Below are positions 4,350 to 32,604 of a stretch of DNA of 64,000 nucleotides, piece by piece (the first letter of the stretch is position 1; each line of letters starts with the position of its first letter). The notes under the pieces were generated by a model, which was given only the letters and a program-made list of their open reading frames with translations, did not search any database and was not told the origin of the DNA. The DNA lies in NCBI RefSeq assembly GCF_033441515.1, contig NZ_JAWQJT010000001.1, positions 4,092,001-4,156,000 of the forward strand, in the 5' to 3' direction. The translations under genes were made by a program, and so were the position numbers. The stretch is from Amycolatopsis solani (GTDB lineage Bacteria > Actinomycetota > Actinomycetes > Mycobacteriales > Pseudonocardiaceae).

Positions 4350-4964
4350 ATGAGCACCGAAGACCTCACCGCGCGGGCCCGGATCCGTGACGCCGCCATC
4401 CGGCTGTTCACCGAACGCGGCATGGAAAAGACGTCCATCCTGGACATCGCCGAGGAAGCCGGGGTGTCGGGCGGGCTCATCCGCCACCACTTCGGCTCGA
4501 AGGACGGCCTGCGCGAGGCCTGCGACACCTACGTCTTCGACGAACTCCTCAAGTTCAAAGAGGAGGTGCTGGCGAAAGGCGTCGCGGACCCGGGGTTCCT
4601 CCCGACGTTCGACGCCCGCCAGCTGCTGTTCCGCCGGTACCTGGGCCGGGCGATGATCGACGGCTCCGAAGCCGCGGCCGCCCAGTTCGTCGAGATCGTC
4701 GACGGCACCGAGCGCTACTTCCGCGGGTCGGGCATGGAAATGCCCGACCCGCGAGGTGTCGCCGCCGCGCTCGCCGCGATGACCGGCGGGCTGATGATCC
4801 TGCAGGACCACGTCGCCCGCGCGCTCGGCGAGGAGCCGGGCACGAACGAGGCGATGCTGCGCATGTCGCTGGCCGCCGGGCACCTGTTCCTGAACCCGCT
4901 CGGCGACGCCGAAGTCCTCGAAAAGGCCCGCGAAGCGCTGGCCGCGTACGAACGGAAGGAATGA
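4350..4964 (+). CDS. TetR-family repressor of the adjacent ABC exporter
   Basis: This 204-residue protein has an N-terminal TetR DNA-binding domain: helix-turn-helix around 29-52 ([20 protein letters not shown] followed by [10 protein letters not shown]). The C-terminal ligand domain (about 60-200) is divergent, as is usual, so the inducer cannot be read. ATG 4350 follows AGGA by about 6 bases. The stop codon overlaps the ATG of the next gene (ATGA at 4961-4964), so tetR, the ATPase and the permease should be co-transcribed and translationally coupled. The palindromes at 4287-4342 suggest autorepression. Regulator-first efflux operons of this layout are common in actinomycetes. Confidence 0.92.
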
Positions 4965-5866
4965 CGATGGCCGAAGCGATCACCGCCGACGGCCTCACCA
5001 AGGCGTTCGGTCCGGCGAAGGCCCTCGACGGGCTCAACCTGACCGTTCACACCGGCGAGGTGCACGGGTTCCTCGGGCCCAACGGCGCCGGCAAGACCAC
5101 GACGATCCGCGTCCTGCTGGGGCTGGTGCGGGCCGACGGCGGCCGCGTCACCCTGCTCGGCGGCGACCCGTGGACCGACGCGACGAAGCTGCACCGGCGG
5201 CTCGCGTACGTGCCGGGCGACGTCACCCTCTGGCCCAACCTCACCGGTGGCGAGGTCATCGACCTGCTCGGCCGGCTGCGCGGCGGCCTCGACGTCCGGC
5301 GGCGCGCAGAGCTGATCGAGCGGTTCGACCTCGACCCGCGGAAGAAGGGCCGGACCTACTCCAAGGGTAACCGGCAGAAGGTCGCGCTCGTGGCGGCGCT
5401 GGCGTCCGATGTGGAGCTGCTGGTCTTCGACGAGCCGACGTCCGGGCTCGACCCGCTGATGGAAGAGGTGTTCCGGCAGGTCGTCGCGGAGGAGCGCGAA
5501 CGCGGCGACCGGACGGTGCTGCTCTCTTCGCACATCCTTTCCGAGGTCGAGGCGCTGTGCGACCGCGTGACGATCATCCGGGCCGGGCGCACCGTCGAGT
5601 CGGGCACCCTGGACGAGCTGCGGCACCTCGGGCGGATCACGATCGACGCGTCGCTCGCGCACGTGCCGGCGGACCTGGGGTCGCTGCCGGGCGTCCACGA
5701 CCTCAGCTCGTACGGCTCTCACGTCCACCTGTCCGTCGACCAGTCGTCGCTGGACGACGTGATGCGGCACCTGGCCGGGGCCGGGCTGCGGAACCTGGTG
5801 AGCCGCCCGCCGACGCTCGAGGAGCTGTTCCTCCGCCACTACGAGCCGGTCGGAGCGGCGCGATGA
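4961..5866 (+). CDS. ABC transporter ATP-binding protein (drug-efflux type)
   Basis: This 301-residue single nucleotide-binding domain has Walker A GPNGAGKT (39-46), a signature variant YSKGNRQK (133-140) in place of LSGGQ, Walker [13 protein letters not shown] (from about 153) and switch His191 in SSHIL. The variant signature is frequent in ABC-2/DrrA-type exporters. About 90 C-terminal residues follow the ABC fold, as in DrrA-like proteins. It should energise the membrane protein encoded next. The start at 4961 overlaps the tetR stop; a second ATG at 4967 is an alternative. Its stop overlaps the next ATG at 5863. Confidence 0.93.
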
Positions 5867-7422
5867 CCGGGACCTTCGCCCTTCTGCGGCTGGTGCTGCG
5901 CCGCGACCGGCTGCTGATGCCGCTGTGGATCGTATGCCTCGCGGCCGCGCCGATGGGCTACCTGTCGTCGATCGAGGCGGCGTACCCGGACGCGTTGTCG
6001 CGGCAGCGCTTCTACGACCTCAACGCGTCCAGCGCGACGTTCGTGGTCCGCAACGGCCCGCTCTACGGCCCGTCGGCAGGAAACCTGCTGGCGTGGCAGT
6101 GCGGGTTCGTCCCGGTCGTCGCCGGGCTGATCGCGCTGCTCACCGTCGTCCGGCACACCCGGGCCGAGGAGGAGGCGGGCCGTCGGGAGCTGACCGGCGC
6201 GACCGTCGTCGGGCGGCACGCCGGACTGGCGGCCGCGGTCATCGCGGCCTGCGGGGCGTGCCTGGTCCACGGCCTGGTGACCGGGGCCGGGCTGGCCGCG
6301 CAGGGCGTCCCCGCCGCCGGCGCGCTGGCGCTGGGGCTCGGGTTTTCGTTGTGCGGCTGGGTGTTCGCCGGCGTCGGTGCGGTCGCGGCGCAGCTCACGT
6401 GGGGTACGGGCGGTGCGCGGGGCATCGGGATCGGCGTGCTGGTGCTGGCGTTCCTGCTGCGCGCGGCGGGCGACAGCAGCGGCTCGGCGGGCTGGCTCTC
6501 GTGGCTGTCGCCGATCGGCTGGGCGCACCGGCTGCGGCCGTTCGCGGGGGAACAGTGGTGGGTCCTCGCGCTGGGCGTCTCGGCTTCGGGGCTGCTGGTG
6601 GCCGTGGCGGTCGCGGTGTCCGCACGGCGTGACCTCGGTGCGGCCCTGCTGCCCGCGCGGCCGGGGCGGGCGACGGCGAAGGCGTCCCTGCGCTCGCCGT
6701 GGGCGCTGGCCTGGCGGCTGCAGCGGGGGACGCTGGTGGTCTGGACCGGCTGCCTCGCGCTGATCGGGCTGCTGATGGGCGGGGTCGCGCGGAACGTCGC
6801 GGAGATGATGCGGGACAACCCGGCCGTCGGGGCGGTGTTCTCCCGCGTCGGCGGTGGTGGCGCGGTGACGGACGCCTACCTCGCGGGCACGATGACGTTG
6901 TTCGGCCTCGTGGCGGCGGGGTACGCGGTGCAGGCGATGCTGAAGCTGCGAGCCGAGGAGGCGGCGGGCCGCGCGGAACCGGTACTGGCGACGGCGGTCG
7001 GGCGGACCGGCTGGGCGTCGGCGCACGGGCTGATCGCGCTCGCGGGTTCGGCGTTCCTGCTGGCGGTCACCGGGCTGGCGACCGGCTTGGCGTACGGGAC
7101 CGGCGCGTCACTGGTCCCGGCGGCGCTGGCGCAGCTGCCTGCGGTGTGGGTGATGGCGGGGCTGGTGGCGGCGCTGATCGGCTTCGTCCCGCGCTTCGCC
7201 GCGGCGGCGTGGGGGCTGCTGGGCGCGTTCCTGCTGGTGTCGCTGGTGGGATCGGCCTTGCGGTGGAGCCCGGCGGTGCTGGGCGTTTCGCCGTTCCAGC
7301 ACCTGGCGCGCTTGCCGGGAGGGACGTTCTCGGTGGCCCCGGTGCTGTGGCTGGTCCTGATCGCTTCGGCGGCCGGCTTGGGCGGCCTCGTCGCCTTGCG
7401 ACGACGAGACATCCCGGCCTGA
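5863..7422 (+). CDS. ABC-2-type multidrug/polyketide exporter permease
   Basis: This 519-residue, strongly hydrophobic protein has about 12 predicted membrane segments in two halves. Each half carries a matching cytoplasmic motif: [17 protein letters not shown] near residue 105 and [17 protein letters not shown] near 365, which is evidence of internal duplication. This is the architecture of the putative polyketide-antibiotic exporter family (COG3559-like), whose members pair with a DrrA-type ATPase. The ATG at 5863 overlaps the ATPase stop. Substrate unknown; export of a toxic hydrophobic compound is inferred from the family and the TetR partner. Confidence 0.88.
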
Positions 7423-7596
7423 GCGGCAACCGAGGGAGTCGAACCCTGCGCGGCTTGTGAAGGCGGCGCCCATGGACCGGCCCTGACCCTTCGGCGGGCG
7501 ACGGCTGCCATCTCTTACAACGCTTCTGGTACCCGGAAATTCCCCGTACCAAGCCGTGCTTCACCCGGACGGGGGCAGGCTGGCAAGGTAAGCGGC

Positions 7597-9045
7597 ATGG
7601 ACGATCTCCTGCTGCGCCGCGTGCGCCCCGGGCTCGGCGGCGAGCTCGCGGACGTCCGCGTGAACGACGGCCGCGTCACGGCCATCACCGAGCCCGGGTC
7701 CGCCGGGTTCGCCGCTCGGGTGGTCGACGGGCACGGCGGCACGCTGCTGCCGGGCTTGGTGGACGCGCACGTCCACGTCGTGCAGTGGGCGACGTCCCGC
7801 CGTCGCATCCCCCTGGACGCGGCCCGGTCGGCGGCGGAGGCGATCGAGCTGCTGCTGGCGCATCTGCTGGCGACGCCCGCGCCGCAGTCGGAGCTGGTGG
7901 TGGGCGCGGGCTTCCGCGACGGGCTGTGGCCGGACCTGCCGCACAAGGACATGCTGCAGCGCGCGCTGCCCGGCCGCGCGGTCGCGTTGTTCGGCGCCGA
8001 CCTCCACACCCTCTGGCTGAGCCCGGCGGCCCTGAAGCTGATCGGCCGCGACCACCCGACCGGCGTCCTGCTGGAAGCCGACTGCATGAGCGCGACGGCC
8101 CAGCTCCCCACGGCGTCGATCGAAACGCAGGACGCGTGGGTGGCCGAGGCACTGGCGGCGGCGGCCGCGCGCGGCGTGACCCGGATCGTCGACTACGAGT
8201 ACGCGGACACGGTGGCGGACTGGACCCGCCGCGGTACGCCGTCGACCCGGGTGTCGTGCGTGATCGCGAAGCACCTCCTGGACCAGACCATCGAGCGCGG
8301 ACACCGCACGGGCGACGTCCTCCCGGATTCCGGCGGGCTCGTCACGGTCGGCCCGTTCAAGCTCTTCGTGGACGGCTCCCTCAACACCCGCACGGCCTAC
8401 TGCCACGACCCCTACCCGGGAAGCGGTTCCCCGGGACTGCTGGAACTGCCGCCGGCCGCGCTGGTTCCGTTGCTGAGGCGGGCTTTCGACCACGGCTTGC
8501 TCCCGGCGGTCCACGCGATCGGGGACCACGCCAACAGCATCGCCCTGGACGCGTTCGAGGAGGTCGGCTGCCCGGGCCGCATCGAGCACGCGCAGCTGCT
8601 CGCCCCGGCCGACGTCCCGCGGTTCGCGGCTCTGGGCCTGGTGGCGTCGGTCCAGCCGGCCCACCAGCCCGACGACCGGGACGTGGCGGACCGCCACTGG
8701 CACGGCCGGACTTCGCGCGCGTTCCCGTACCGGTCGCTGCTGGAATCGGGCGCCCGCCTGGAGTTCGGCTCGGACGCCCCGGTGGCACCGCTGGACCCCT
8801 GGGACGGGATCGCCTCGGCGGTCGCCCGCACCGACGACGACCGGCCGCCGTGGCACCCGGAGCAGTCGATCCCGTTCCCCGACGCACTGGCCGCGTCCTC
8901 GGACGGCCGCCGCGGCGTGGCGGTGGGCGACGTGGCGGACCTCATGGTGACGGCGACCGACCCGTCGGCGCTGTCGCCGTCGGACCTGCGAAACCTCCCG
9001 GTGACGGCGACCATCCTCGGTGGGCACGTGACGCACCAGGTCTGA
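7597..9045 (+). CDS. YtcJ-like amidohydrolase (amidohydrolase 3 family)
   Basis: This 482-residue metal-dependent hydrolase has PGLVDAHVH (52-60), whose two histidines are the first metal ligands, then HAIGDHANSIALDAFE, RIEHAQLL and FGSDAPVAPLDPW. This motif order is typical of the YtcJ/amidohydrolase-3 group, which act on amides or cyclic imides; the substrate cannot be read. A small N-terminal beta segment (1-50) and the C-terminal strands form the usual composite beta-sandwich. ATG 7597 is preceded by AAGG. It stands alone between the exporter operon and the GH92 gene. Confidence 0.85.
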   Translation: MDDLLLRRVRPGLGGELADVRVNDGRVTAITEPGSAGFAARVVDGHGGTLLPGLVDAHVHVVQWATSRRRIPLDAARSAAEAIELLLAHLLATPAPQSELVVGAGFRDGLWPDLPHKDMLQRALPGRAVALFGADLHTLWLSPAALKLIGRDHPTGVLLEADCMSATAQLPTASIETQDAWVAEALAAAAARGVTRIVDYEYADTVADWTRRGTPSTRVSCVIAKHLLDQTIERGHRTGDVLPDSGGLVTVGPFKLFVDGSLNTRTAYCHDPYPGSGSPGLLELPPAALVPLLRRAFDHGLLPAVHAIGDHANSIALDAFEEVGCPGRIEHAQLLAPADVPRFAALGLVASVQPAHQPDDRDVADRHWHGRTSRAFPYRSLLESGARLEFGSDAPVAPLDPWDGIASAVARTDDDRPPWHPEQSIPFPDALAASSDGRRGVAVGDVADLMVTATDPSALSPSDLRNLPVTATILGGHVTHQV

Positions 9046-9103
9046 TCCGGCGTGCGGGGCTTGCAATGTCCACCGGACAACGGAAAAGATCACACGACCG
9101 ATG

Positions 9104-9117
9104 TGACAACGTTGTCA
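9104..9117. promoter_or_regulatory. LacI-type operator before the GH92 gene
   Basis: TGACAACGTTGTCA is a perfect 14-bp palindrome with the central CG step typical of LacI-family operators. It ends next to the AGGAGG ribosome site and 13 bp before the start codon. A repressor bound here would block transcription through the leader. No LacI-family gene is in the window. Confidence 0.6.
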
Positions 9118-9129
9118 GGAGGACACGGG

Positions 9130-11472
9130 ATGAGAGCGCGGACACGCGTCCTTGCCACCTTGCTCGCCGGAGCCACCACGATGGCCCTCGCGACCCCCGC
9201 GCAGGCCGCCGGACCGAGGTTCGCCGACGACCCCACCACGCTCGTCGACACCTCGATCGGCAACAACGGGGACGGCACCACCTTCCCGGGCGCCACCACC
9301 CCGTTCGGGATGGTGCAGCTCAGCCCGGACACCCAGCTCAAGAAGTACGCGTCCTACGACTACGCCCAGGACACGACCCTCGGCTTCAGCCACACCCACC
9401 TCTCCGGGGTCGGCTGCCAGACGATGGGCAACTTCCGCTTCATGCCCACCACCGGCGCCGTGACCAGCAGCGATCCCGCGCAGTACGGCGCCAAGTTCAG
9501 CCACGCCGACGAGACGCGCCGGCCCGGGTACTACGGCGTCAAGCTCGGCAACGGCGTCGAAGCCGAGCTGACCGCCACCCAGCGCACGGGCCAGCACCGC
9601 TACACCTTCCCGGCCGGTGCGAGCCAGAACGTCCTGATCGAGGTCGGCGAGAGCAACGGCTACACCTACGCCGGGGACGTGCACGTCGTCGGCGACGACA
9701 CCGTCGAGGGCTGGCTGCAGGGCGGCAACTTCTGCTGGGAGACCCAGAAAGAGCGCTACAAGGTCTTCTTCAGCGCCAAGTTCGACCGGAAGTTCACCGG
9801 CTTCGGCACCTGGACCGACGACAAGCTGACCGCGAACCAGCGTGACGCGAAGCTCGGCAGCCGGCGCACCGGCGCCTGGCTCAGCTTCGGGACCGAGAAG
9901 AACCAGGTCGGCGCCTCGGTCGGCCTGTCGTACACGTCGGTCGACGGCGCCCGGCTGAACCGCGGCACCGAGCAGCCCAAGTCGTTCGGCAAGGCCGAAA
10001 AGCAAGCGCACGACACCTGGGAAGACGAGCTGAACCGGCTGCGCGTCGCCGGTGGGACGACCGCGGACCAGCGCACCTACTACAGCGCGCTGTACCGGTC
10101 GCTGCTGCACCCGTCCGTCGGGTCCGATGTGGACGGTTCCTACCGCGGCTTCGACGACGCGGTGCACCGCAGCCGTGACACGTACTACCAGATGTTCTCG
10201 CTCTGGGACACCTACCGCTCGCAGAACCAGCTGGTCGCGCTCCTGCACCCGGACAAGGCCGCGGACATGACCAAGTCCGTCCTCAAGATCTACCAGGACG
10301 GCGGCTGGGTCCCGCGCTGGGCGCTCGGCGGCGGCGAGACGAACGTGATGAGCGGCGACCCCGTCACGCCGTGGGTGGTCGACAACTACCGCCGCGGCAT
10401 CCTGGACGACAAGACCGCGCGCCAGCTCTTCGACGCCTTGTGGCGCAACGCCAACGAGGTGCCGGCGGACCAGTCCGTCTTCCGCGGCCGCGACGGCAAC
10501 CCGACGTACGTGAAGAACGGCTGGATCGGCTACCAGGACCTCCCCGGCTACACCTACGGCGACACCCGCCAGGCCGGTTCGGCGACCCTCGAATACGCGC
10601 TCGCCGACTGCGCACTGTCCACAATGGCGGCCGGGCTGGGCTACCGCGACAAGGCCGCGACGCTCTCCGCCCGCTGCGGCAACTTCGCGAACCTGTGGGA
10701 CACCGGCGTCGAATCCCACGGGTTCACGGGTTTCCCGCGCACCAAGGCCGCGGACGGCACCGGCGTCGGCAACCCCGACCCGGCGCAGTCGACCGGCTTC
10801 CACGAGGGCACGCCGTGGCAGTACCAGTGGCTCGCCCAGCAGGACACGGCCAAGCTGTTCGGCCTGATGGGCGGCCCGACGCAGGCCGAGAAGCGGCTCG
10901 ACACGTTCTTCGACCTGCCGCTGCTGCTCACCGACCCGGCGAAGGCCGCCAAAGACTCCTGGGTCCACGGCGCGTACGATTACCACAACAACTTCGCCTT
11001 CAACCCGAACAACGAGCCCGACCTGCACGCACCCTGGATGTACAGCTGGACGGGGGCGCCGTGGAAGACGTCGGCCGTGCTGCGCGCGGCGCGGACGCTC
11101 TTCACCGACACGCCGTACGGCATGCCCGGCAACGACGACCTCGGCACCATCTCGTCGTGGCTCGTCTTCGGCATGACCGGCGTCTTCGAAGCCCAGCCCG
11201 GCTCCGGGACGTACCTGCTCAGCACCCCGATGTTCGAGAAGGTCGAGATCCGCCCGGCCGGCGGCCGCAAGATCGAGATCGAGGCACCCGGCGCGAGCGC
11301 GGCGAAGCTGCAGTACACCAAGGACGTCCGGGTCGGGTCGCGCGGCTACGACCGCGGCTGGATCTCCCACGCGGACCTGCTCCGCGCGGGCAAGATCCGA
11401 TTCTCGCTGAGCGACACGCCGACGACGTGGGGCACGAAGTCCGTTCCGCCCGCTCTGTCCCAGGTGCGCTGA
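9130..11472 (+). CDS. Secreted GH92 family alpha-mannosidase
   Basis: Start at ATG 9130 follows AGGAGG and begins a clear signal peptide (MRARTR, hydrophobic core, AQA-AG at about 26). An upstream in-frame start exists but would bury the signal peptide. The 780-residue product shows family hallmarks in order: SHTHLSGVG, LWDTYRSQNQL, GGWVPRWALGGGETNVMSGD, HEGTPWQYQW with the likely general acid Glu559, and GNDD (667-670) followed by an SSW segment, where GH92 enzymes place the general-base aspartates. GH92 enzymes are calcium-dependent exo-acting alpha-mannosidases acting on N-glycans or fungal mannan. Linkage specificity cannot be read. LacI-like control (9104-9117) suggests induction by a sugar. 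Confidence 0.92.
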   Translation: MRARTRVLATLLAGATTMALATPAQAAGPRFADDPTTLVDTSIGNNGDGTTFPGATTPFGMVQLSPDTQLKKYASYDYAQDTTLGFSHTHLSGVGCQTMGNFRFMPTTGAVTSSDPAQYGAKFSHADETRRPGYYGVKLGNGVEAELTATQRTGQHRYTFPAGASQNVLIEVGESNGYTYAGDVHVVGDDTVEGWLQGGNFCWETQKERYKVFFSAKFDRKFTGFGTWTDDKLTANQRDAKLGSRRTGAWLSFGTEKNQVGASVGLSYTSVDGARLNRGTEQPKSFGKAEKQAHDTWEDELNRLRVAGGTTADQRTYYSALYRSLLHPSVGSDVDGSYRGFDDAVHRSRDTYYQMFSLWDTYRSQNQLVALLHPDKAADMTKSVLKIYQDGGWVPRWALGGGETNVMSGDPVTPWVVDNYRRGILDDKTARQLFDALWRNANEVPADQSVFRGRDGNPTYVKNGWIGYQDLPGYTYGDTRQAGSATLEYALADCALSTMAAGLGYRDKAATLSARCGNFANLWDTGVESHGFTGFPRTKAADGTGVGNPDPAQSTGFHEGTPWQYQWLAQQDTAKLFGLMGGPTQAEKRLDTFFDLPLLLTDPAKAAKDSWVHGAYDYHNNFAFNPNNEPDLHAPWMYSWTGAPWKTSAVLRAARTLFTDTPYGMPGNDDLGTISSWLVFGMTGVFEAQPGSGTYLLSTPMFEKVEIRPAGGRKIEIEAPGASAAKLQYTKDVRVGSRGYDRGWISHADLLRAGKIRFSLSDTPTTWGTKSVPPALSQVR

Positions 11473-16460: not shown

Positions 16461-16487
16461 CCCGGTGTCCGAGCGGTGGACACCGGG
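16461..16487. terminator. Hairpin between the GT2 gene and the orphan membrane gene
   Basis: CCCGGTGTCC (16461-16470) pairs with GGACACCGGG (16478-16487), with a 7-base loop. On the minus strand it follows the stop of the gene at 16497 by 10 bp, so it fits a terminator for the 17.4-16.5 kb unit. Confidence 0.65.
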
Positions 16488-16496
16488 CAGCGGCGC

Positions 16497-17003
16497 TCAG
16501 CTGTGGGCGCGCAGCGGCACCACGTTGCTCGGCAAGGACGCCCGGCCCGGCTCGCGCTTCGGCGCGTCCGCGCTGATCGTGAGCGTCACCAGGCTCGCGT
16601 ACCGCGGGTGCCGGTCGACGTACACCTCCGGCACCGAGCACGCCTCCGCCAGGACCGAGCGGTGGCGGTGCAGGTGGTCGAAGGCCTCGCGCCCGTACAG
16701 CGACACGACGACGTCACCGCCGCGCGGACGGCTCCAGAGGATGGTGGGCCGGCCGCCGGGGAGGCGCAGGTGCGGGAACACCGCCCGCAGCCGGTGCTGC
16801 AGCGCCACCGCGCGGAACCGGGCGCGGACCTGGCGGCGGCGCAGCACCGCCCAGCCGAGCGTGAGGGCCAGGAGCGCCGACGCCCACAGCGGACCCGCCC
16901 ACAGCGCGAAGGTCACGACGCAGTAGGGGAGCAGGGTGACGGCCAGGATCTCCCACCGCCAGTGGTAGACGCGCAGCGGGAAGGACGGCTGCTTGCTGGT
17001 CAT
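16497..17003 (-). CDS. Orphan membrane protein resembling the N-terminus of AICE FtsK-like transfer proteins
   Basis: ATG 17003 is preceded by AAAGGAG at good spacing. The same frame is open to an ATG at 17117 that overlaps the previous stop, so a 206-residue version is possible. The 168-residue product has two adjacent hydrophobic segments (about 18-55), then a soluble part: RHRLRAVFPHLRLP-type basic helix, PTILWSRPRGGDVVVSLYG and PRYASLVTLTISADAP. From memory of the family this layout resembles the module that precedes the ATPase in FtsK/SpoIIIE-like transfer proteins of actinomycete integrative conjugative elements. No Walker motifs or downstream ATPase are present, so it is either a remnant or a stand-alone protein. 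The family resemblance is not checked by search. Confidence 0.55.
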   Translation of the reverse strand: MTSKQPSFPLRVYHWRWEILAVTLLPYCVVTFALWAGPLWASALLALTLGWAVLRRRQVRARFRAVALQHRLRAVFPHLRLPGGRPTILWSRPRGGDVVVSLYGREAFDHLHRHRSVLAEACSVPEVYVDRHPRYASLVTLTISADAPKREPGRASLPSNVVPLRAHS

Positions 17004-17113
17004 GTCCGTGCTCCTTTCGGTCGGGCGTCGGCGGAGGACACCGCCGAGGTGGTGCAGGAGACGTCCGGCGCCGGTCGCGGCCACGATGGCCGCGACGATC
17101 GCCGGCCCGGACG

Positions 17114-17383
17114 TCATGTCGGGATCCGGGTCTTGGGGGCGGGCCGCAGGTCCTTGTCCTTGCCGAGCCGCCAGGTCCACCGCCACCCCGCCCAGACCGC
17201 GGCGACGGATCCCATCAGGACGAGCACGACGGCCTGGCCGACGAGGCCGTCGAGCGGCGCGAGGCGCAGCAGCACCAGCAGCGCCCAGACTTGGGACGCG
17301 GTGAACGGGATGACGAGCCCGGCGGCGTAGACGCCGCGGCGCCAGCGGCTGCCGCGCGGCGCGGCGGTGGTGTAGGGGTCCAT
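17114..17383 (-). CDS. Small two-helix membrane protein, function unknown
   Basis: This 89-residue protein starts at ATG 17383 with GAGGAGG just upstream. It has two hydrophobic helices (about 17-40 and 48-68) and a basic tail ending KDKDLRPAPKTRIPT. Its TGA overlaps an ATG at 17117 that is in frame with the next gene. I do not recognise a family. Small membrane proteins of this kind often accompany transfer genes of actinomycete mobile elements, which fits the orphan gene downstream and the pseudogene upstream. Confidence 0.55.
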   Translation of the reverse strand: MDPYTTAAPRGSRWRRGVYAAGLVIPFTASQVWALLVLLRLAPLDGLVGQAVVLVLMGSVAAVWAGWRWTWRLGKDKDLRPAPKTRIPT

Positions 17384-17449
17384 TGAGTGCCCTCCTCCTC
17401 GGTGGATCCAGAAAACCTCCGGAACGCCGCGCCTTGTGTGTCAGGTGAC

Positions 17450-18012
17450 TCAGAAGGCGGGATTCAGCTCGCGATTCGTCGAAATTCGGCCAAGCGGGTA
17501 GACCGTCAGTCGTCTCCGGCCGGTGCTGATCACCCCTTGCCGCCGCAGATCGCGCGTCGCCCGCCGGTCGGCCGGAGCCGGACCGGCTGGGAATGCCGTC
17601 GGTTCCACTGCCCCACCTCCGTTGCGGTCCGAGGCGATCAGGTCCTCTTCCGGTTCGGCCGCCTCGACGTCGGGGAAGCCGTGCCGGACGACCGAGCGGT
17701 GCATCTCCTGCGAGACGCGGAGCGCGACGCGTCCGGCGTTGATACGCAGCTGTCGCTCGAGTTCGGGTGCGTCGACGAGACGGCAGGTGATGTCGATGTC
17801 GTCCGGGCGGACCAGACGCGGCGCGTTCTCACCTCGGTCGGCGAGCCGGCCGCGGTAGCCGGGGCCGGTCCAGGCGGCCGCCAGGCTTCATCGAGCGGCG
17901 AGAAGAGGACGTTGCGGGGCTGGGAACGCACCGAGTCCATCCGTCCGGTCGCATTCTCGATGTCGACCGGAACGACGGCCCAGTGCCGGGGTAAGTCGGC
18001 TGAGGTGTCCAT
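17450..18012 (-). pseudogene. Frameshifted, internally deleted remnant of a cyclase-like regulatory protein
   Basis: The start at ATG 18012 (GGAG upstream) encodes WAVVPVDIENATGRMD and a segment ending LDEAW. At about 17870-17885 the reading frame is lost. The coding potential continues in another frame as GYRGRLADRGENAPRLVRPDD, then DITCRLVDAPELERQL and VSQEMHRSVVRHGFPDVE, to a TGA at 17450. The junction is GCCTGG-CGGCC-GCCTGG: removing one 11-bp unit restores the frame, so a small tandem duplication probably caused it. The order matches an actinomycete family with an N-terminal VVDIE motif and a C-terminal FRLLD / VVRHG motif. The middle region usual for the family (about 70 residues) is absent at the LVRPDD/IDIT junction. 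No product is expected. Confidence 0.6.
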
Positions 18013-18034
18013 GGCCCGCTCCTGCCTTCAGGTG

Positions 18035-18048
18035 TGAACTGAAGTTCA
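18035..18048. promoter_or_regulatory. Inverted repeat in the pseudogene/XRE-gene gap
   Basis: TGAACT-GA-AGTTCA has perfect 6-bp arms, and another AGTTCAC follows at 18053. It lies just upstream of the pseudogene start and about 200 bp upstream of the XRE gene. It may be a site for an XRE-type regulator, but the assignment is weak. Confidence 0.3.
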
Positions 18049-18246
18049 GTCAAGTTCACTGTATGGGATGGAGTACCTTGGAACAACCGAGATGGATCGA
18101 CGTTATCGGTTTGGTGCGGCGGAATTAGGCCAGACGTAACACTTCAGTCTTCAGACTTGGAGGTTGCCGCGATGGGGTTGCTCCGTGAGGAGTATGATCA
18201 GCGCACCTGCTGGCAGTGCTGAAATTTGCTGAAGGGTGGCGAGGTC

Positions 18247-19317
18247 GTGTCCCCGAGCATGCCGCGGCCTGAGCTGCCTCGCCGCCTCCGGCACCTGCGC
18301 GAGCGGCATTGGCCCGAAGCCGGCATCACGCAGGCTCAACTGGCCGAAGCGCTCGGCGGGGACAAGCCGCTCAGCGTCTCGCTCATCTCGTCGTGGGAGA
18401 ACACCGACAAGGTGGTCCGCCCGCCGGTGAAGCGGTTGGAGGCCTACGCGACGCTGTTCGCGACCCGCCGGTCGATGAGCGCCGAAAGCTTGCGCGTTCT
18501 CCCGGTGGAAGAACTGACGGACGAGGAGCGTGCCGAGCGCAAAGGCCTCCTGGAAGAGCTACTGGTGCTCCGCGAAGGCAAGAGGGGCAACCCGGTGCCG
18601 CGGGCGAAGGTCTGGAAGTTCCAAGAAGGCGAAGACATCACTATCGTCTGCGCTCAGCTCCCCGCGAAGCTCAGGGAACACTTCTCCTACGCCGACCCGG
18701 AGAGCGCCGACTTCGCCTCCCTGTACACCTACGCCGACCCGGATGCTTTGATCGAGTTGTTCGGGCACATCAGGGCGACGAACCCGGAAAACGCGGTCAC
18801 TTTTCACACGAATGACGAGTTGACTCCTGACCTCTACACGACCCACCTGGTGTTGCTCGGCGGAGTCGACTGGAACACGGTGACTCGCGACGTCATCGAA
18901 CGCGTCGACTTGCCGGTGCTGCAGGTCGTTCGCGACGGCAACGAGCCGACCAGCGGGCACGGTGGCTTCGAAGTCGAACGTCACGGCAAGAAGACGCTCT
19001 TCCCGCCGGAGTTGGATAGTCGAGGCCGGCTTTTGGAGGACGTGGCCCATTTCTACCGCGGCGTCAGTCCGTTCAACCAAAAGCGCACGGTGACCGTGTG
19101 CAACGGCATGTACGGTCGAGGCACGCTCGGAGCGGTCCGCGCGCTGACGGACAGCCGGTTCCGCGACCGGAACCAGGAGTACTTGAGCCAGCGGTTCGGC
19201 GACGCCGAATCCTTCAGCATAATCAGCCGGGTGCCCGTGGTGGCGGGCATGGGGCTCACCCCGGACTGGACCCTCGAGGAGAACCGGTTGCACGAATGGC
19301 CGGAGGCTGCCGCGTGA
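18247..19317 (+). CDS. XRE-type HTH protein with a large uncharacterised C-terminal sensor domain
   Basis: GTG 18247 is used; TTG 18226 and ATG 18259 are alternatives. The product is 356 residues. Residues 12-72 form an XRE-like HTH (TQAQLAEALGG, then SVSLISSWEN and RLEAYATLFATRR). A linker (85-115) leads to a domain at about 122-352 with distinctive blocks: DITIVCAQLP, LYTYADPDALIELFGHIRA, THLVLLGGVDWN, EDVAHFYRGVSPFNQKRT, CNGMYGRGTLGAVRALTD and ISRVPVVAG. The domain is rich in potential ligand-binding Asp/Asn/Gly motifs. I do not recognise a named function. The stop overlaps the GTG of the glycosyltransferase gene, so the two are made together and are probably functional partners. Confidence 0.78.
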   Translation: MSPSMPRPELPRRLRHLRERHWPEAGITQAQLAEALGGDKPLSVSLISSWENTDKVVRPPVKRLEAYATLFATRRSMSAESLRVLPVEELTDEERAERKGLLEELLVLREGKRGNPVPRAKVWKFQEGEDITIVCAQLPAKLREHFSYADPESADFASLYTYADPDALIELFGHIRATNPENAVTFHTNDELTPDLYTTHLVLLGGVDWNTVTRDVIERVDLPVLQVVRDGNEPTSGHGGFEVERHGKKTLFPPELDSRGRLLEDVAHFYRGVSPFNQKRTVTVCNGMYGRGTLGAVRALTDSRFRDRNQEYLSQRFGDAESFSIISRVPVVAGMGLTPDWTLEENRLHEWPEAAA

Positions 19318-20501
19318 ACGCAAGGCAGCACGAGTCCCACCGAGAACTGCTGACCCCCGTCGAAGCCGCCGGGGCACCGCACGCGCCGCTGGACGCGATC
19401 ATCGTGCCCAATGGGCGACCGTCCGCCTACCTCGAGCACGCCATCAGTGCGGCGAAGCAGCTCAACACGCACTTGCTGTTGTTGTGCAGCCTGCGGGCGA
19501 ACGCGTCCACCGCGGCCTTGGTGGCCAAGCGGGCGGGCGTCCGGGTGACCGCCATCGACGTGGACCTGCTGCCTCCCGGTGTCGTGCCCGAGTTCGCCAC
19601 CGACAAGCTGCTCCGGAAGACGCGGTTCCACCGCCACGCCGACACCAGCCTGAAGCGCAATCTGGGGTTGCTCGTGGCGAGCCTCGCCGGGTGGAAGCGG
19701 ATCGTCTTCCTCGACGACGACATCGTGCTGCCGAAGCCGGGTGACCTCCTCGCTGCGGCCGGGTTGCTCCAAGAGCACCCAGTCGTCGGTCTCGCGAACA
19801 CCGGCATGCCGGACAACTCGGTCGTCTGCCACGCACTCCGCGACGTTGGCGTCTGCCAGGACACGTTCATCGGCGGTGGAGCGATGGTGGTCGGGGAATC
19901 CGCCCTCGGCTCGTTCTTCCCCAATATCTACAACGAAGACTGGTTCTTCTTGCTGGACGGGCTGCGGCTGCGCTCGTCGGCTGTCACGGGGTCCGCGTTC
20001 CAATACGACTACGACCCGTACAGCGATCCGCGGCGGGCACGAGGTGAGGAACTGGGCGACACCCTCGCCGAAGGTGTGTTCGGTCTGTTGGACAACGGCA
20101 GGGGTCTTGCGGACGCCAACGCCACCTACTGGGCTGCGTTCATCGCCGCGAGACGAGAGGTCATCCGGACGACGATCTCGCGGGTAGAGGCGTCAGTGAT
20201 CGAGCCGGCGCAGCGAGGGAGGATGGTCAATGCGCTGAAGGCCGCGATCGGTCGCAGTCACCTGATCAGCCCGGAACTGTGCGTCGACTACTTGCGCGCT
20301 TGGCAGAGCGACTGCGTGCGCTGGCGCAGGCACGTTCGTGAACTCCGGCGTGACCACCGCGGCGGATGGGGGATCGAGGAGGCGCTCACGACGCTGCGCA
20401 TCGGCAACATCGCTCAGCCTGGTGTCGACGGGCGTATCAGCGCCGGACTCAGGCGAAAGCAGCTACCGCCGGCTCGGCCGATGGCGCGGGTGTGGGCATG
20501 A
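19314..20501 (+). CDS. GT-A-fold glycosyltransferase-like enzyme coupled to the XRE sensor
   Basis: This 395-residue protein starts at GTG 19314, overlapping the XRE stop (GTGA). Nucleotide-sugar-type features in order: APLDAIIVPNGRP (25-35), a LKRNLGLLVA segment (113-122), the metal-binding FLDDDIVLP (133-140 with DDD at 134-136), GGGAMVVG (187-194) and NEDWFF (207-212), which is where GT2 enzymes carry the catalytic base. There is no signal peptide or membrane helix, so it should act in the cytosol on a soluble substrate. The C-terminal 150 residues are helical. The last 53 bp overlap the convergent GNAT gene. The acceptor and donor are unknown. Confidence 0.72.
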   Translation: MNARQHESHRELLTPVEAAGAPHAPLDAIIVPNGRPSAYLEHAISAAKQLNTHLLLLCSLRANASTAALVAKRAGVRVTAIDVDLLPPGVVPEFATDKLLRKTRFHRHADTSLKRNLGLLVASLAGWKRIVFLDDDIVLPKPGDLLAAAGLLQEHPVVGLANTGMPDNSVVCHALRDVGVCQDTFIGGGAMVVGESALGSFFPNIYNEDWFFLLDGLRLRSSAVTGSAFQYDYDPYSDPRRARGEELGDTLAEGVFGLLDNGRGLADANATYWAAFIAARREVIRTTISRVEASVIEPAQRGRMVNALKAAIGRSHLISPELCVDYLRAWQSDCVRWRRHVRELRRDHRGGWGIEEALTTLRIGNIAQPGVDGRISAGLRRKQLPPARPMARVWA

Positions 20502-21030
20502 CGCTCGTGATGTTCTTGACGAGCACGTGGCAGATTTCCCGCTCGCGCTTCGGGAACCATCCCTTGGCTGGGATCGGATAGGCGCGGCAAGTCACCTTTT
20601 GGTGTCCCCAGTCTTCGTACCCGAGCCGCTCGTAGAGTCGGGCGGCCCGGTCGTTGTCGGTCCGCACCGCGAGCGTGATCCGCTCGTTGCCGAGACTTGC
20701 GGCGTGCTTCTCGACGGCCTTGATCAGAGCGCGGCCGACCCCCTTGCTGCGGTACTTCTCCAGAACCTCGAGATGGGTGAGTTGGGGGACGCCCTTGAGG
20801 TACCTGTCGATCTTCTTCTCTTCGGCCTTCTCGAGGCGCAGGTAAACCACGCCGGCAGCCTTGCCCTTGATCCACGCCGCGAACAGAACGCCTCGACCGG
20901 CCTGCTGGCGGTGGAAGTGATCGGTGAGGAATGCCTCCTCGCCGAAGGCGTTGATCAGCTTGTCGAGCTGGCCCAGCCTTCTGACCTGCCCAACCACAGC
21001 GTCGGCCACCGATGGACTCCCGTTCGTCAT
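20449..21030 (-). CDS. GNAT-family N-acetyltransferase
   Basis: This 193-residue protein starts at ATG 21030 (an ATG at 21081 is in frame upstream). It has the GNAT acetyl-CoA site RSKGVG at 94-99, preceded by the strand LTHLEVLEKY and followed by TLAVRTDNDRAARLYERLGYED. The C-terminal extension (145-193) ends in an alanine/proline-rich tail. It is convergent with the glycosyltransferase gene and its 3' end overlaps that gene by 53 bp. The compact layout suggests the three genes moved as a unit. The substrate, an amine on a small molecule or protein, is unknown. Confidence 0.8.
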   Translation of the reverse strand: MTNGSPSVADAVVGQVRRLGQLDKLINAFGEEAFLTDHFHRQQAGRGVLFAAWIKGKAAGVVYLRLEKAEEKKIDRYLKGVPQLTHLEVLEKYRSKGVGRALIKAVEKHAASLGNERITLAVRTDNDRAARLYERLGYEDWGHQKVTCRAYPIPAKGWFPKREREICHVLVKNITSVMPTPAPSAEPAVAAFA

Positions 21031-21186
21031 AGGCCCTATTCGTGCGAGCCTGAGGGAACGAGTTGCCACGCTTAAGTCCATTTGGCACGCTCCCCATGCA
21101 TGCCGCAGGGTGCGGCGATGATTTCATGCTTACTGAATGTGAGATAGCCCCCTGTCAATCTTCAACGGAGAGTAGTCGTCCGGTTG

Positions 21187-28263: not shown

Positions 28264-29655
28264 TTGAAGAGCACCGTCGAGCAGCTGAGCCCGACGCGAG
28301 TCAAGATCAATGTCGAGGTGCCGTTCGACGAGTTGAAGCCGAACTTCGACCGCGCCTACCGCAAGATCGCCCAGCAGGTGCGCATCCCGGGCTTCCGGCC
28401 CGGCAAGGCGCCCGCTCGCGTCCTGGAAAGCCGGATCGGCCGCGGCCCGGTGCTCGACGAGGTCGTCAACGAGGCCATCCCGGCCAAGTACATCGAGGCC
28501 GTTCGCGAGAACGAGGTCCGCACGCTCGGCAACCCCGAGTTCGACGTGACCAAGCTCGAGGACCGCGACGTCCTGGAGTTCACCGCCGAGGTCGACGTGC
28601 GCCCGGAGATCGAGCTGCCCGACCTCGAAGGCTTCGCGGTCACCGTCGACGACGTCGAGCTGACCGACGCCGAGGTCGACGAGCAGCTCGACGAGCTGCG
28701 AGCCCGCTTCGGCACGCTGACCGGCGTCGAGCGCCCGGCCGAGACCGGCGACTTCGTCTCGATCGACCTGTCCGCGACCGTCGACGGCGAGACCGTCGAG
28801 GAGGCGAGCACCACCGGGCTGTCCTACGAGATCGGCTCCGGCCAGCTCGTCGACGGCATCGACGAGGCCATCGTGGGTGCCAACGCCGGCGAGACCAAAA
28901 CGTTCACCACCCAGCTCGTCGCCGGCGACCACGCCGGCAAGGACGCCGAGGTGACCGTGACCGTCCAGTCGGTCAAGCAGCGCGAGCTGCCCGAGGCCGA
29001 CGACGAGTTCGCCCAGATGGCGAGCGAGTTCGACACGATCGAGGAGCTCAAGGGCGACCTCCGCGAGCGCCTCGGCCGCGTCAAGAAGATGCAGCAGGGC
29101 GTCCAGGCCCGCGACAAGGTGCTCGACGAGCTCCTGGAGCGCACCGAGGTGCCGATCCCGGAGAAGGTCCTTGACGCCGAGATCGAGAACCGCAAGCACG
29201 ACGCGATCCACCCGTTCGACCACGACGAGGCCCAGTTCGCGCAGGCCCTCGAGGCCGACGGCCGCACCCTCGAAGAGTTCGACACCGAGACCCGCACCGA
29301 GTCGGAGAAGGCCGTCCGCACGCAGCTGCTGCTGGACACCATCGCCGACAAGGAAGAGGTCTCGGTCAACGACGGCGAGCTCACCGAGCGGATCATTTAC
29401 CAGGCCCAGCGCTTCGGGATCAGCCCGGACGAGTACGTCCAGCGTGCCCAGCAGTCCGGCCAGCTGACCGCGATCTACGCCGACGTCCGGCGCGGCAAGG
29501 CACTGGCCTCGGTGGTCCGCAAGGCCACCGTGACCGACGGCTCCGGTGCCGAGGTCGACCTCTCGGAGCTGTTCGGCTCGGACGAGCCGGCCGCCGACGA
29601 GGCAACCCAGGAGACGCAGGTCACCGACGAGACGGCGAAGACTCCGGCGGAGTGA
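28264..29655 (+). CDS. tig: Trigger factor, ribosome-associated chaperone
   Basis: This 463-residue protein starts at TTG 28264 with GAGGAG upstream. It begins [20 protein letters not shown], with the ribosome-docking signature (PGFRPGKAP, about 44-52) in the N-terminal domain. A PPIase/FKBP-type domain (about 150-245; [34 protein letters not shown]) and a long helical C-terminal chaperone domain follow. The acidic C-terminal tail ([13 protein letters not shown]) is longer than in E. coli. It folds nascent chains at the ribosome exit. Followed by a strong hairpin and then clpP1, the usual actinobacterial order tig-clpP1-clpP2-clpX. Confidence 0.98.
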
Positions 29656-29664
29656 AGCTGTGAG

Positions 29665-29706
29665 CGAACTTGGGCGGTGTCAGGCATTCTGCACCGCCCA
29701 AGTTCG
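29665..29706 (+). terminator. Strong hairpin between tig and clpP1
   Basis: CGAACTTGGGCGGTG (29665-29679) pairs perfectly with CACCGCCCAAGTTCG (29692-29706), a 15-bp stem with a 12-base loop, starting 9 bp past the tig stop. There is no long T-run. It separates tig from the clp genes, at least partly. Confidence 0.75.
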
Positions 29707-29793
29707 TTAGGGTCGGATACAAGATCTCAAGCATCTGAAACGACAGCGGTGGCCGTCAGCACCGGGCCACCGCCGGCGAAAAGGCAGGCAGAC

Positions 29794-30399
29794 GTGACGC
29801 AGCACACGCCCGAGGCGCGGTCCGGCACCGCAGGGCTCACCCTCACCGACTCGGTGTTCGAGCGGTTGCTCCAGGAGCGCATCGTCGTCCTCGGTTCCGA
29901 GGTGAACGACGAAGTCGCCAACCGGATCACCGCGCAGCTGTTGCTGCTCGACGCCGACGACGCCGAGTCCGACATCCGCTTCTACATCAACTCGCCGGGT
30001 GGCTCGGTCACGGCCGGGTTCGCCATCTACGACACCATGCAGCTGATCCGCCCGGACGTCGCGACGTACGCGATGGGCATGGCGGCCTCGATGGGGCAGT
30101 TCCTGCTCTCCTCGGGCACGCCCGGCAAGCGCTACTCGCTGCCGCACGCGCGGATCCTGATGCACCAGCCCTCGGCCGGGGTCGGCGGTACCGCGTCGGA
30201 CATCGCGATCCAGGCGGACCTGTTCAACAAGTGGAAGCGCGAGCTGGCCCAGATCACCGCGGACCAGACCGGGCAGACGGTCGAGCAGATCATCGCGGAC
30301 GGCGACCGCGACCGCTGGTTCACCGCGCAGGAGGCGAAGGACTACGGGTTCGTCGATCACGTCCTCACCCGCGACATCGCCCGTCCGGCCTCGAACTGA
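29794..30399 (+). CDS. clpP1: ATP-dependent Clp protease proteolytic subunit 1
   Basis: Start chosen at GTG 29794 with AGGCAGG upstream, giving a 201-residue protein of normal length. An ATG at 29677 would overlap the terminator and tig end and add a non-conserved stretch. The catalytic triad is visible: Ser99 in GMAASMG, His124 in LMHQP and Asp173 in DRDRWF. The YINSPGGSV oxyanion region is at 64-72. In actinobacteria ClpP1 and ClpP2 form a mixed double ring gated by ClpX or ClpC1. It lies 28 bp before clpP2. Confidence 0.97.
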
Positions 30400-30427
30400 G
30401 CGCGAAGTACACACAGGAGAGTCGATC

Positions 30428-31081
30428 ATGAGCAACTTCAGGCTCCCGGGTGACTTCCGGGCACCGGCCGTCCCCCAGTCGCGGTACATCCTCCCGTCGT
30501 ACGTCGAGCGCACCAGCTACGGCGTCAAGGAGTCGAACCCGTACAACAAGCTGTACGAAGAGCGGGTCATCTTCCTCGGCGTCCAGGTGGACGACGCGTC
30601 GGCCAACGACGTGATGGCCCAGCTGCTGCACCTCGAGCACGAGGACCCGGACCGCGACATCCTGATCTACATCAACTCGCCGGGTGGCTCGTTCACCTCG
30701 CTGATGGCGATCTACGACACCATGCAGTTCGTCCGCCCGGACATCCAGACGTACTGCCTCGGCCAGGCCGCCTCGGCCGCCGCGGTGCTGCTGTCGGCCG
30801 GCACGCCGGGCAAGCGCTACGCGCTGCCGAACTCGCGCGTGCTGATTCACCAGCCGGCCACCGAGGGCACCTACGGCCAGGTCTCCGACCTGGAGATCCA
30901 GGCGAACGAGATCCAGCGGGTGCGGCGCCAGATGGAGGTCATCCTGGCCAAGCACACCGGCAAGGACGCGGACCAGATCCGCAAGGACATCGAGCGGGAC
31001 AAGATCCTGACGGCCGACGAGGCCAAGTCGTACGGCATCATCGACGAGGTCTTGCCGTACCGGAAGGCGTCGGCTCTGTAG
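30428..31081 (+). CDS. clpP2: ATP-dependent Clp protease proteolytic subunit 2
   Basis: This 217-residue protein starts at ATG 30428, with CAGGAG upstream. Catalytic Ser116 is in GQAASAAAV, His141 in IHQP and Asp191 in ERDKIL. The N-terminal extension ([19 protein letters not shown]) and the SAAAV active-site variant are typical of actinobacterial ClpP2, the partner that contacts the AAA+ unfoldase. Co-transcribed with clpP1; followed by a perfect hairpin. Confidence 0.97.
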
Positions 31082-31090
31082 ATCCGCCAG

Positions 31091-31124
31091 GCCGGTGTGT
31101 GTCGAGAAGACGACACACACCGGC
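31091..31124 (+). terminator. Terminator after clpP2
   Basis: GCCGGTGTGTGTCG (31091-31104) pairs perfectly with CGACACACACCGGC (31111-31124), a 14-bp stem with loop AGAAGA, 9 bp past the clpP2 stop. No T-run follows. It suggests that clpX has its own promoter in the 31125-31308 gap. Confidence 0.8.
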
Positions 31125-31308
31125 ATCCTGGTTTAGGGTCGTCCTCTGACGTGCTCCCGGAGCTCGTGGGTGTTCCCGCTCGCGGCATCGGACGGGTACC
31201 GTCAGTGGCAATGCGTGCGGCTCCGCTCGGTCACGGGTGACCGGGGCCGCACCGTGGCAACACAGTCAGGCGCGGAAACCCGCGCCGGAGGGGACGAGGT
31301 CACAGGCC

Positions 31309-32604
31309 ATGGCACGGATCGGTGACGGCGGAGACCTGCTGAAGTGTTCTTTCTGCGGGAAGAGCCAGAAGCAGGTGAAGAAGCTCATTGCCGGCCCCGG
31401 GGTCTACATCTGCGATGAGTGCATCGACCTCTGCAATGAGATCATCGAGGAGGAGCTGGCCGAGGCCGGCGACGTCAAGCTCGACGAGCTGCCCAAGCCC
31501 GCCGACATCCACGAGTTCCTCGAGCAGTACATCATCGGTCAGGAAGACGCCAAGCGGACGCTCGCGGTAGCGGTCTACAACCACTACAAGCGGATCCAGG
31601 CGGACGACAAGGCCGGGCCGAAGGACTCCAAGGAGGAGTCGGTCGAGCTCGCGAAGTCGAACATCCTGATGCTCGGCCCCACCGGGTGCGGCAAGACCTA
31701 CCTCGCGCAGACCCTGGCGAAGCTGCTGAACGTGCCGTTCGCGATCGCGGACGCCACGGCGCTCACCGAGGCCGGGTACGTCGGCGAGGACGTCGAGAAC
31801 ATCCTGCTCAAGCTCATCCAGGCGGCGGACTACGACGTCAAGCGGGCCGAGACCGGGATCATCTACATCGACGAGGTCGACAAGATCGCCCGCAAGAGCG
31901 AAAACCCGTCGATCACCCGTGACGTGTCCGGCGAGGGTGTCCAGCAGGCGCTGCTGAAGATCCTCGAGGGCACCACCGCTTCGGTCCCGCCGCAGGGCGG
32001 CCGCAAGCACCCGCACCAGGAGTTCATCCAGATCGACACGACGAACGTGCTGTTCATCGTGGCCGGCGCGTTCGCCGGGCTGGAGAAGATCATCAACGAG
32101 CGGGTCGGCAAGCGTGGCCTCGGCTTCGGCGCGGAGATCCGCACGAAGTCCGAGATCGAGGAGAGCGACGTCTTCTCCGACACCATGCCCGAGGACCTGA
32201 TCAAGTTCGGGCTGATCCCGGAGTTCATCGGCCGCCTGCCGGTCGTGGCGACGGTGAACCACCTGGACAAGGACTCGCTGGTCAACATCCTGACCCAGCC
32301 GCGCAACGCCCTGGTGAAGCAGTACAAGAAGCTCTTCGAGATGGACAACGTCGAGCTCGAGTTCACCAAGACCGCGCTCGAGGCCATCGCCGACCAGGCG
32401 GTCCTCCGGGGTACGGGTGCCCGCGGGCTGCGCGCCATCATGGAAGAGGTGCTGCAGCCGGTCATGTACGACATCCCGAGCCGCGACGACGTGGCGAAGG
32501 TCGTCATCACCGAGCAGACCGTCCGGGAGAACGTGAACCCGACGATCGTCGCCCGGCAGCCGACTCGGCGCACGCGCAGCGAGCGCGGCGAAAAGTCGGC
32601 CTGA
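31309..32604 (+). CDS. clpX: ATP-dependent Clp protease ATP-binding subunit ClpX
   Basis: This 431-residue protein starts at ATG 31309, giving the conserved [21 protein letters not shown]-terminus. The zinc-binding domain uses Cys13, Cys16, Cys35 and Cys38. The AAA+ module has Walker A GPTGCGKT (123-130), Walker [10 protein letters not shown], a GYVGEDVE pore loop, the [13 protein letters not shown] stretch and the sensor-2 [10 protein letters not shown]. It unfolds tagged substrates and feeds them to ClpP1P2. The frame is open further upstream, but that extension is non-conserved. Confidence 0.98.

Follow-up and report, generated by a model that had tools for sequence, protein, structure and literature searches.

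Autoregulators of the XRE type that carry a ligand-binding C-terminal domain are a general, known kind of transcriptional switch. The locus analyzed here lies in a 64,000-nucleotide stretch of the Amycolatopsis solani genome (assembly GCF_033441515.1, contig NZ_JAWQJT010000001.1, positions 4,092,001 to 4,156,000 of the forward strand; hereafter the window, in whose numbering all coordinates are given) and encodes an XRE-type regulator, an enzyme of the glycosyltransferase GT-A fold (hereafter the GT) and a GNAT acetyltransferase. It resembles the XRE autoregulators in combining a helix-turn-helix (HTH) with a large C-terminal domain, in the operator-like sites in the regulator's own promoter and in the coupled downstream gene, but neither the sensor fold nor the GT partner is described for such regulators in the literature that we found. 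Folds comparable to that of the sensor domain are present in the flavodoxin-like domain of BcsB, in the N-domains of GH67, GH84 and GH115 and in an archaeal S-layer anchor; unlike in these proteins, the domain is joined here to an XRE HTH, in a protein with no likely membrane segment. The GT shares the GT-A fold with C-terminal helices and the DDD metal motif with the GT75 nucleoside diphosphate (NDP)-pyranose mutases (MtdL, plant UAM/RGP), but lacks an arginine at the nucleophile position as well as a match to the Pfam RGP family, and its profile similarity to the mutases is weak. From the soluble GT-A synthases, mannosyl-3-phosphoglycerate synthase and GpgS, it differs in the absence of a sequence match and in being paired with XRE and GNAT. 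Finally, a cyclase-like gene next to a gene for a cyclic nucleotide monophosphate (cNMP)-binding protein, seen in relatives of the locus, recalls the Pycsar and VMAP-type conflict systems; in contrast to these, the protein that binds cNMP belongs to the Crp type of HTH regulators (HTH_Crp_2), and the conserved set showed no vWA/MoxR or TIR component.

The preliminary description of this DNA, made from the sequence alone, reported an XRE gene coupled through GTGA to a GT-A enzyme, with a GNAT gene overlapping from the other strand. All three genes are indeed intact in this arrangement, the convergent 3' ends of the GNAT and GT genes overlapping by 53 bp. The features of this unit are as follows.

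18247..19317, + strand: XRE-type regulator, 356 aa from a GTG start (open frame, HTH_31 above the cut-off, conservation with the GT)
18610..19248, + strand: C-terminal sensor-like domain, residues 118-330 counted from the ATG at 18259 (AlphaFold2 model, BcsB-like fold, profile A6)
19314..20501, + strand: GT-A-fold enzyme, 395 aa, GTG start at 19314 in the GTGA overlap with XRE
19713..19721, + strand: DDD motif of the GT, residues 134-136 (invariant in the alignment)
19935..19940, + strand: ED of the GT, residues 208-209, in a YNEDW stretch (alignment)
20449..21081, - strand: GNAT acetyltransferase, alternative start at 21030 (Acetyltransf_1 match; adjoins XRE-GT in 48 of 67 loci)
18219..18234, + strand: tandem CTGAA operator-like site before XRE, overlapping the likely ribosome-binding site (footprint)
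18039..18049, no strand assigned: operator-like palindrome CTGAAGTTCAG upstream of a decayed cyclase-like gene (footprint; one of four exact sites in the genome)

A start at the position of 18247 is also visible in the nearest relatives. Given that the XRE-GT-GNAT arrangement recurs across genomes, it is beyond chance. Judged from the sequence comparison, XRE-GT, often with GNAT, is a real, conserved regulator-enzyme module with a biochemical mechanism that we infer; no description of the pair was found in the open-licence literature searched. The ovmZ/ovmW system is unrelated, as far as the part of its description consulted goes (PMC11264864).

The linkage was surveyed in 249 genomes of the family, 71 of which match XRE and 47 the GT. 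When the 85 XRE matches were binned by identity, the GT was found directly downstream on the same strand in 43/43 cases at 52% or more, in 3/20 at 39-46%, in 0/7 at 31-38% and in 0/15 at 30% or less. The neighbourhood survey that the preliminary description had proposed thus bears the pair out, all close homologues being linked to the GT. In a phylum sample of 396 genomes, XRE was matched only in its own genome, and the GT in four genomes including its own, with three of the matches weak and no other clear relative; profile searches of 197 genomes of the class detected the sensor domain in nine and the GT in six (own genome and weak matches counted). Each of the four strong GT matches outside the family (G726, G734, G748, G749) adjoins a sensor-domain XRE and a GNAT-type gene. 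Gene neighbourhoods were compared in 67 non-duplicate loci, all chosen for XRE and most already known to carry the GT, at a threshold of E 1e-4; the GT was found in 67, GNAT in 48, the cyclase-like gene in 41 and the Crp gene in 23, the last two counts including the remnants in the window and displaced remnants in L126. Three loci (L184, L185, L106) contain one GT flanked by two sensor-domain XRE genes, and L107 encodes three GT homologues (4933-10948; 46, 30 and 54% identity). A subfamily of the XRE sensor occurs without the GT (L103, L104, L105, L114, L115); in L103 its neighbours have Pfam-type similarity to the pseudouridine synthase, 2OG-Fe(II) oxygenase and AMP-binding families.

The HTH_31 match of XRE (31.6 bits against a Pfam cut-off of 27) identifies a Cro/C1-type HTH. 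With the highest 19-residue hydropathy at 1.06 for XRE, 1.32 for the GT and 1.22 for GNAT, none of the three proteins has a likely membrane segment. The C-terminal domain of XRE is predicted by the model to have a BcsB-flavodoxin-like fold, which structure comparison finds to be common to BcsB and the N-domains of glycan-degrading enzymes. In the searches made, the domain matched no known metabolic regulator, an outcome that would have refuted the preliminary description. HalOD1 and DdfA matches fell below the cut-off, the domain had no significant sequence match among solved chains, and sequence searches of the PDB with XRE, GT and cyclase-like queries produced nothing at E 0.01 or better. 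In the GT, D134-D135-D136 and E208-D209 are invariant in an alignment of 45 sequences; among 18 more diverse sequences D134 and D136, but not D135, are invariant. Together with the hydropathy, this agrees with the original assignment of an intact, soluble GT-A-type enzyme. The best structural match of the GT is the GT75 mutase MtdL, followed by soluble sugar-conjugate synthases, and no Pfam family matches the protein at E up to 1.

A palindrome is common to the aligned upstream regions of the XRE loci. Of 59 loci, 49 have the motif TGAANTTCA in the 350 bp before XRE and 47 have its tandem form; shuffled sequences gave a mean of 0.15 and a maximum of 1 for the motif (40 runs) and a mean of 0.05 for the tandem form. 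Because these loci are related, with at least two duplicates among them, the sites are to be read as a footprint rather than as a count of independent events. Within the window, TGAANTTCA on its own is not significant, one copy being present in 12 of 100 shuffles, and matches with two mismatches number 15 where 8.2 are expected. Given that there are four exact CTGAANTTCAG sites in the genome and seven in the reversed control, and that the three besides the site at 18039 are located within an open reading frame (ORF), at an ORF end and between ORFs, control looks local.

The third component, GNAT, contains a clear Acetyltransf_1 domain (E 3.4e-17; 63.2 bits against a Pfam cut-off of 20.7). Beyond the 48 loci where it adjoins the pair, GNAT-type genes are found in L106 and in the four loci outside the family, and two loci, L109 and L110, encode a fusion of the GT with a hexapeptide (LbH) acyltransferase. 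Distant relatives of the sensor domain (24-30% identity) have a Glyco_transf_25 gene after them and LbH and hydrolase genes facing them in 12 of 15 fetched loci, or 13 of 16 with L188 (L087-L096, L098, L099, L188); a lanthipeptide dehydratase is encoded in six of those 16 loci. Because the acyltransferase partnership recurs, which we regard as the best hint, GNAT appears to be part of the unit and the role of the unit to be metabolic.

We put at about even the chance that XRE, the GT and GNAT form an autoregulated, ligand-gated biosynthetic module, the product of which would most likely be an acylated glycoside. XRE would bind operators of the TGAANTTCA type both in the promoter from which it is itself expressed and in that of the divergent cyclase-like/Crp pair, of which the window has decayed remains; a carbohydrate-related ligand would bind the BcsB-like C-terminal domain and relieve repression; the coupled soluble GT-A enzyme would then use an NDP-sugar to glycosylate a cytosolic acceptor; and GNAT would acetylate the donor, the acceptor or the product. 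The linkage, the footprint, both folds, the DDD motif, the acyltransferase partnership and the presence or absence of the genes at one site are supported by sequence or model. We infer that XRE binds the operator, and likewise the sign of regulation, the nature of ligand, donor and acceptor, and the sequence of the reaction steps. Several observations weigh against this interpretation. The sensor is matched at the fold level only, with no Foldseek match reaching E 0.001 and a TM-score of 0.28, and the matched part of BcsB is the flavodoxin-like domain, not the carbohydrate-binding one. The GT accompanies only three of the 20 XRE matches of 39-46% identity, and in 13 of the 67 loci neither GNAT nor a cyclase-like gene was found. 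The loci behind the footprint are related and include duplicates, and the four exact CTGAANTTCAG sites genome-wide, against seven for the reversed control, represent no enrichment. A broader and more tentative proposal, which we consider possible but doubtful, is that these loci exemplify an unrecognised class of cytoplasmic sugar-responsive switches, in which a BcsB-like sensor, on an XRE HTH or another N-terminal region, would be repeatedly paired with unrelated glycosyltransferases (GT75-like or Glyco_transf_25) and acyltransferases (GNAT or LbH) and would read the product or a precursor of the enzyme that it controls.

Comparison with relatives bears on the gain or loss of the unit at its present site, where the surrounding features are the following.

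16484..21186, no strand assigned: segment missing from this site in eight Amycolatopsis loci that lack the cassette
16497..17186, - strand: protein of an unknown family within the inserted segment (similar genes in 15 of 67 loci)
17114..17383, - strand: small protein, 89 aa, within the inserted segment (similar genes in 24 of 67 loci)
17483..17563, - strand: what is left of a Crp-type gene (63% identity over 27 matched residues)
17663..18012, - strand: decayed cyclase-like gene (tblastn pieces: shifted frame, internal loss, stop)

XRE is missing from nine of 17 genomes of the genus (A. solani included), all nine of which match the flanking histidine kinase. Eight of the nine were compared, G578 (best kinase match 57%) being left out, and in 8/8 the genes for the kinase, a mannosyltransferase, GT2/GtrA and a second mannosyltransferase are contiguous. 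The gaps between the matches measure -1 to 13 bp in seven of these loci and 119 bp in the eighth; the corresponding gap in the window is 4,703 bp. Among the 67 loci, 16 are at the site seen in the window, 10 by priA and 13 before methionine-salvage genes. Given these empty sites and the different chromosomal addresses in different lineages, the cassette was gained or lost as a unit. The proposed portability accordingly holds on an evolutionary time scale, but the mobile-element surroundings that went with it are not supported: no integrase or transposase was detected among those ORFs of the window's neighbourhood that were scanned, XRE has no match in 50,697 phage records, and its single match in 72,556 plasmid records, to a Nonomuraea record of 11.8 Mb, has a query coverage of 18%. 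The decayed genes at 17483-18012 on the minus strand, previously taken to be mobile-element-like, are a broken cyclase-like gene and the tail of a Crp gene, a pair that is intact in relatives; mobile-element remnants beside the cassette are not supported, the ORFs at 16497-17186 and 17114-17383 matching no Pfam family at E 0.01 and no plasmid record.

The Crp relative carries cNMP_binding and HTH_Crp_2 domains. No relevant Pfam match was found in 14 members of the cyclase-like family, and its three best PDB profile matches are class III cyclases at E 0.014-0.14, so that the name 'cyclase-like' is to be taken as provisional. The window's copy of this gene lacks a middle part and is out of frame, and of the Crp gene only 27 residues are still matched by tblastn; in L004, L011 and L022 neither gene was detected at E 1e-4, and hence the XRE-GT-GNAT trio persists without this arm. 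The A. solani genome (10.28 Mb) contains one match to each of the XRE, GT and GNAT proteins, whose closest named relatives belong to Amycolatopsis. Third-codon-position GC is 0.85 in XRE, 0.80 in the GT (in an ORF with 72 extra codons at the start) and 0.80 in GNAT, compared with 0.89-0.97 in other ORFs picked between 9 and 33 kb. ORFs named by eye as tig, clpP, clpP and clpX-like at 28264-32604 place the cassette near core genes. A further gene cassette occupies the same insertion site in L003, L004, L007, L008, L011, L012, L013, L022, L126 and L128; counted by a thiL-like gene (identified by eye), it is present in 10 of 67 loci, in some with an XRE gene and a dCTP-deaminase-like gene.

Simpler or different explanations have to be weighed against a ligand-gated biosynthetic module. 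The C-terminal domain might only dimerise XRE, the locus being a simple autorepressed enzyme operon that responds to no ligand; this seems unlikely, given that the domain comprises about 210 residues, that motifs rich in glycine and asparagine are retained among homologues of 25-54% identity, and that no HTH is recognised beside the domain in L088, the one distant relative scanned with Pfam. The GT could instead be a GT75-type NDP-sugar pyranose-furanose mutase that provides furanose donors, the flanking mannosyltransferase genes being one possible destination. However, the position of the nucleophilic, auto-glycosylated arginine of MtdL (R159) is occupied, in a weak alignment, by T163, which is variable across the family; Pfam RGP (PF03214) matches neither the GT nor anything else in the genome; hhalign against GT75 yields a probability of 1% with a narrow GT profile and 29% with a wider one; and no more than 16 of 67 loci have the mannosyltransferase genes beside the cassette. 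We give this reading little credence. A role in methylthio-sugar or methionine-salvage chemistry is suggested by 13 of 67 loci in which an acyl-CoA-dehydrogenase-like gene and mtnA lie downstream of XRE-GT in the same orientation, accompanied in 12 of them by ARD (Pfam matches), with no GNAT or cyclase-like gene found there (L018, L019, L138, L140-L146, L148, L153, L155). This arrangement is, however, confined to those loci, is not seen around the cassette in the window and could reflect a chance insertion site, which makes such a role very improbable.

The most different alternative, close to the defence role raised in the preliminary description, is an anti-phage or stress-response module in which the sensor would detect infection, the GT and GNAT would modify a host or invader molecule, and the cyclase-like and Crp proteins would form a second-messenger arm. 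The presence of a cyclase-like neighbour in 41 of the 67 loci and of a Crp neighbour in 23, and the patchy presence with empty sites, are in line with it. For conflict systems of actinobacteria, the portion consulted of PMC7159879 reports cyclase, glycosyltransferase and GCN5-like domains; the Crp relative also matches Pycsar models of PADLOC (PycTIR, E 1.7e-13), via its cNMP-binding domain only. Against this, PADLOC gave no match for XRE, best values of E 0.032 for the GT and 0.023 for GNAT, and nothing convincing for the cyclase-like protein; the conserved set showed neither a TIR nor a membrane effector; and 16 of the 67 loci share one site, the named neighbours elsewhere being mostly metabolic or core genes. 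Two matches to mad2 in PADLOC (E 8.4e-17 and 7e-22) were discarded because they concern adjacent genes, which Pfam identifies as methyltransferases. On balance, a defence function appears quite unlikely.

The locus joins a GT-A family that has no assignment to an unusual sensor fold of XRE through strong genomic coupling, and its short operator candidate can be tested. The theme of a sensor, a glycosyltransferase and an acyltransferase, found in some loci beside lanthipeptide genes, provides a handle for finding more such modules. For Amycolatopsis and its relatives, a group known for antibiotics, the module would point to a probably acylated glycoside.
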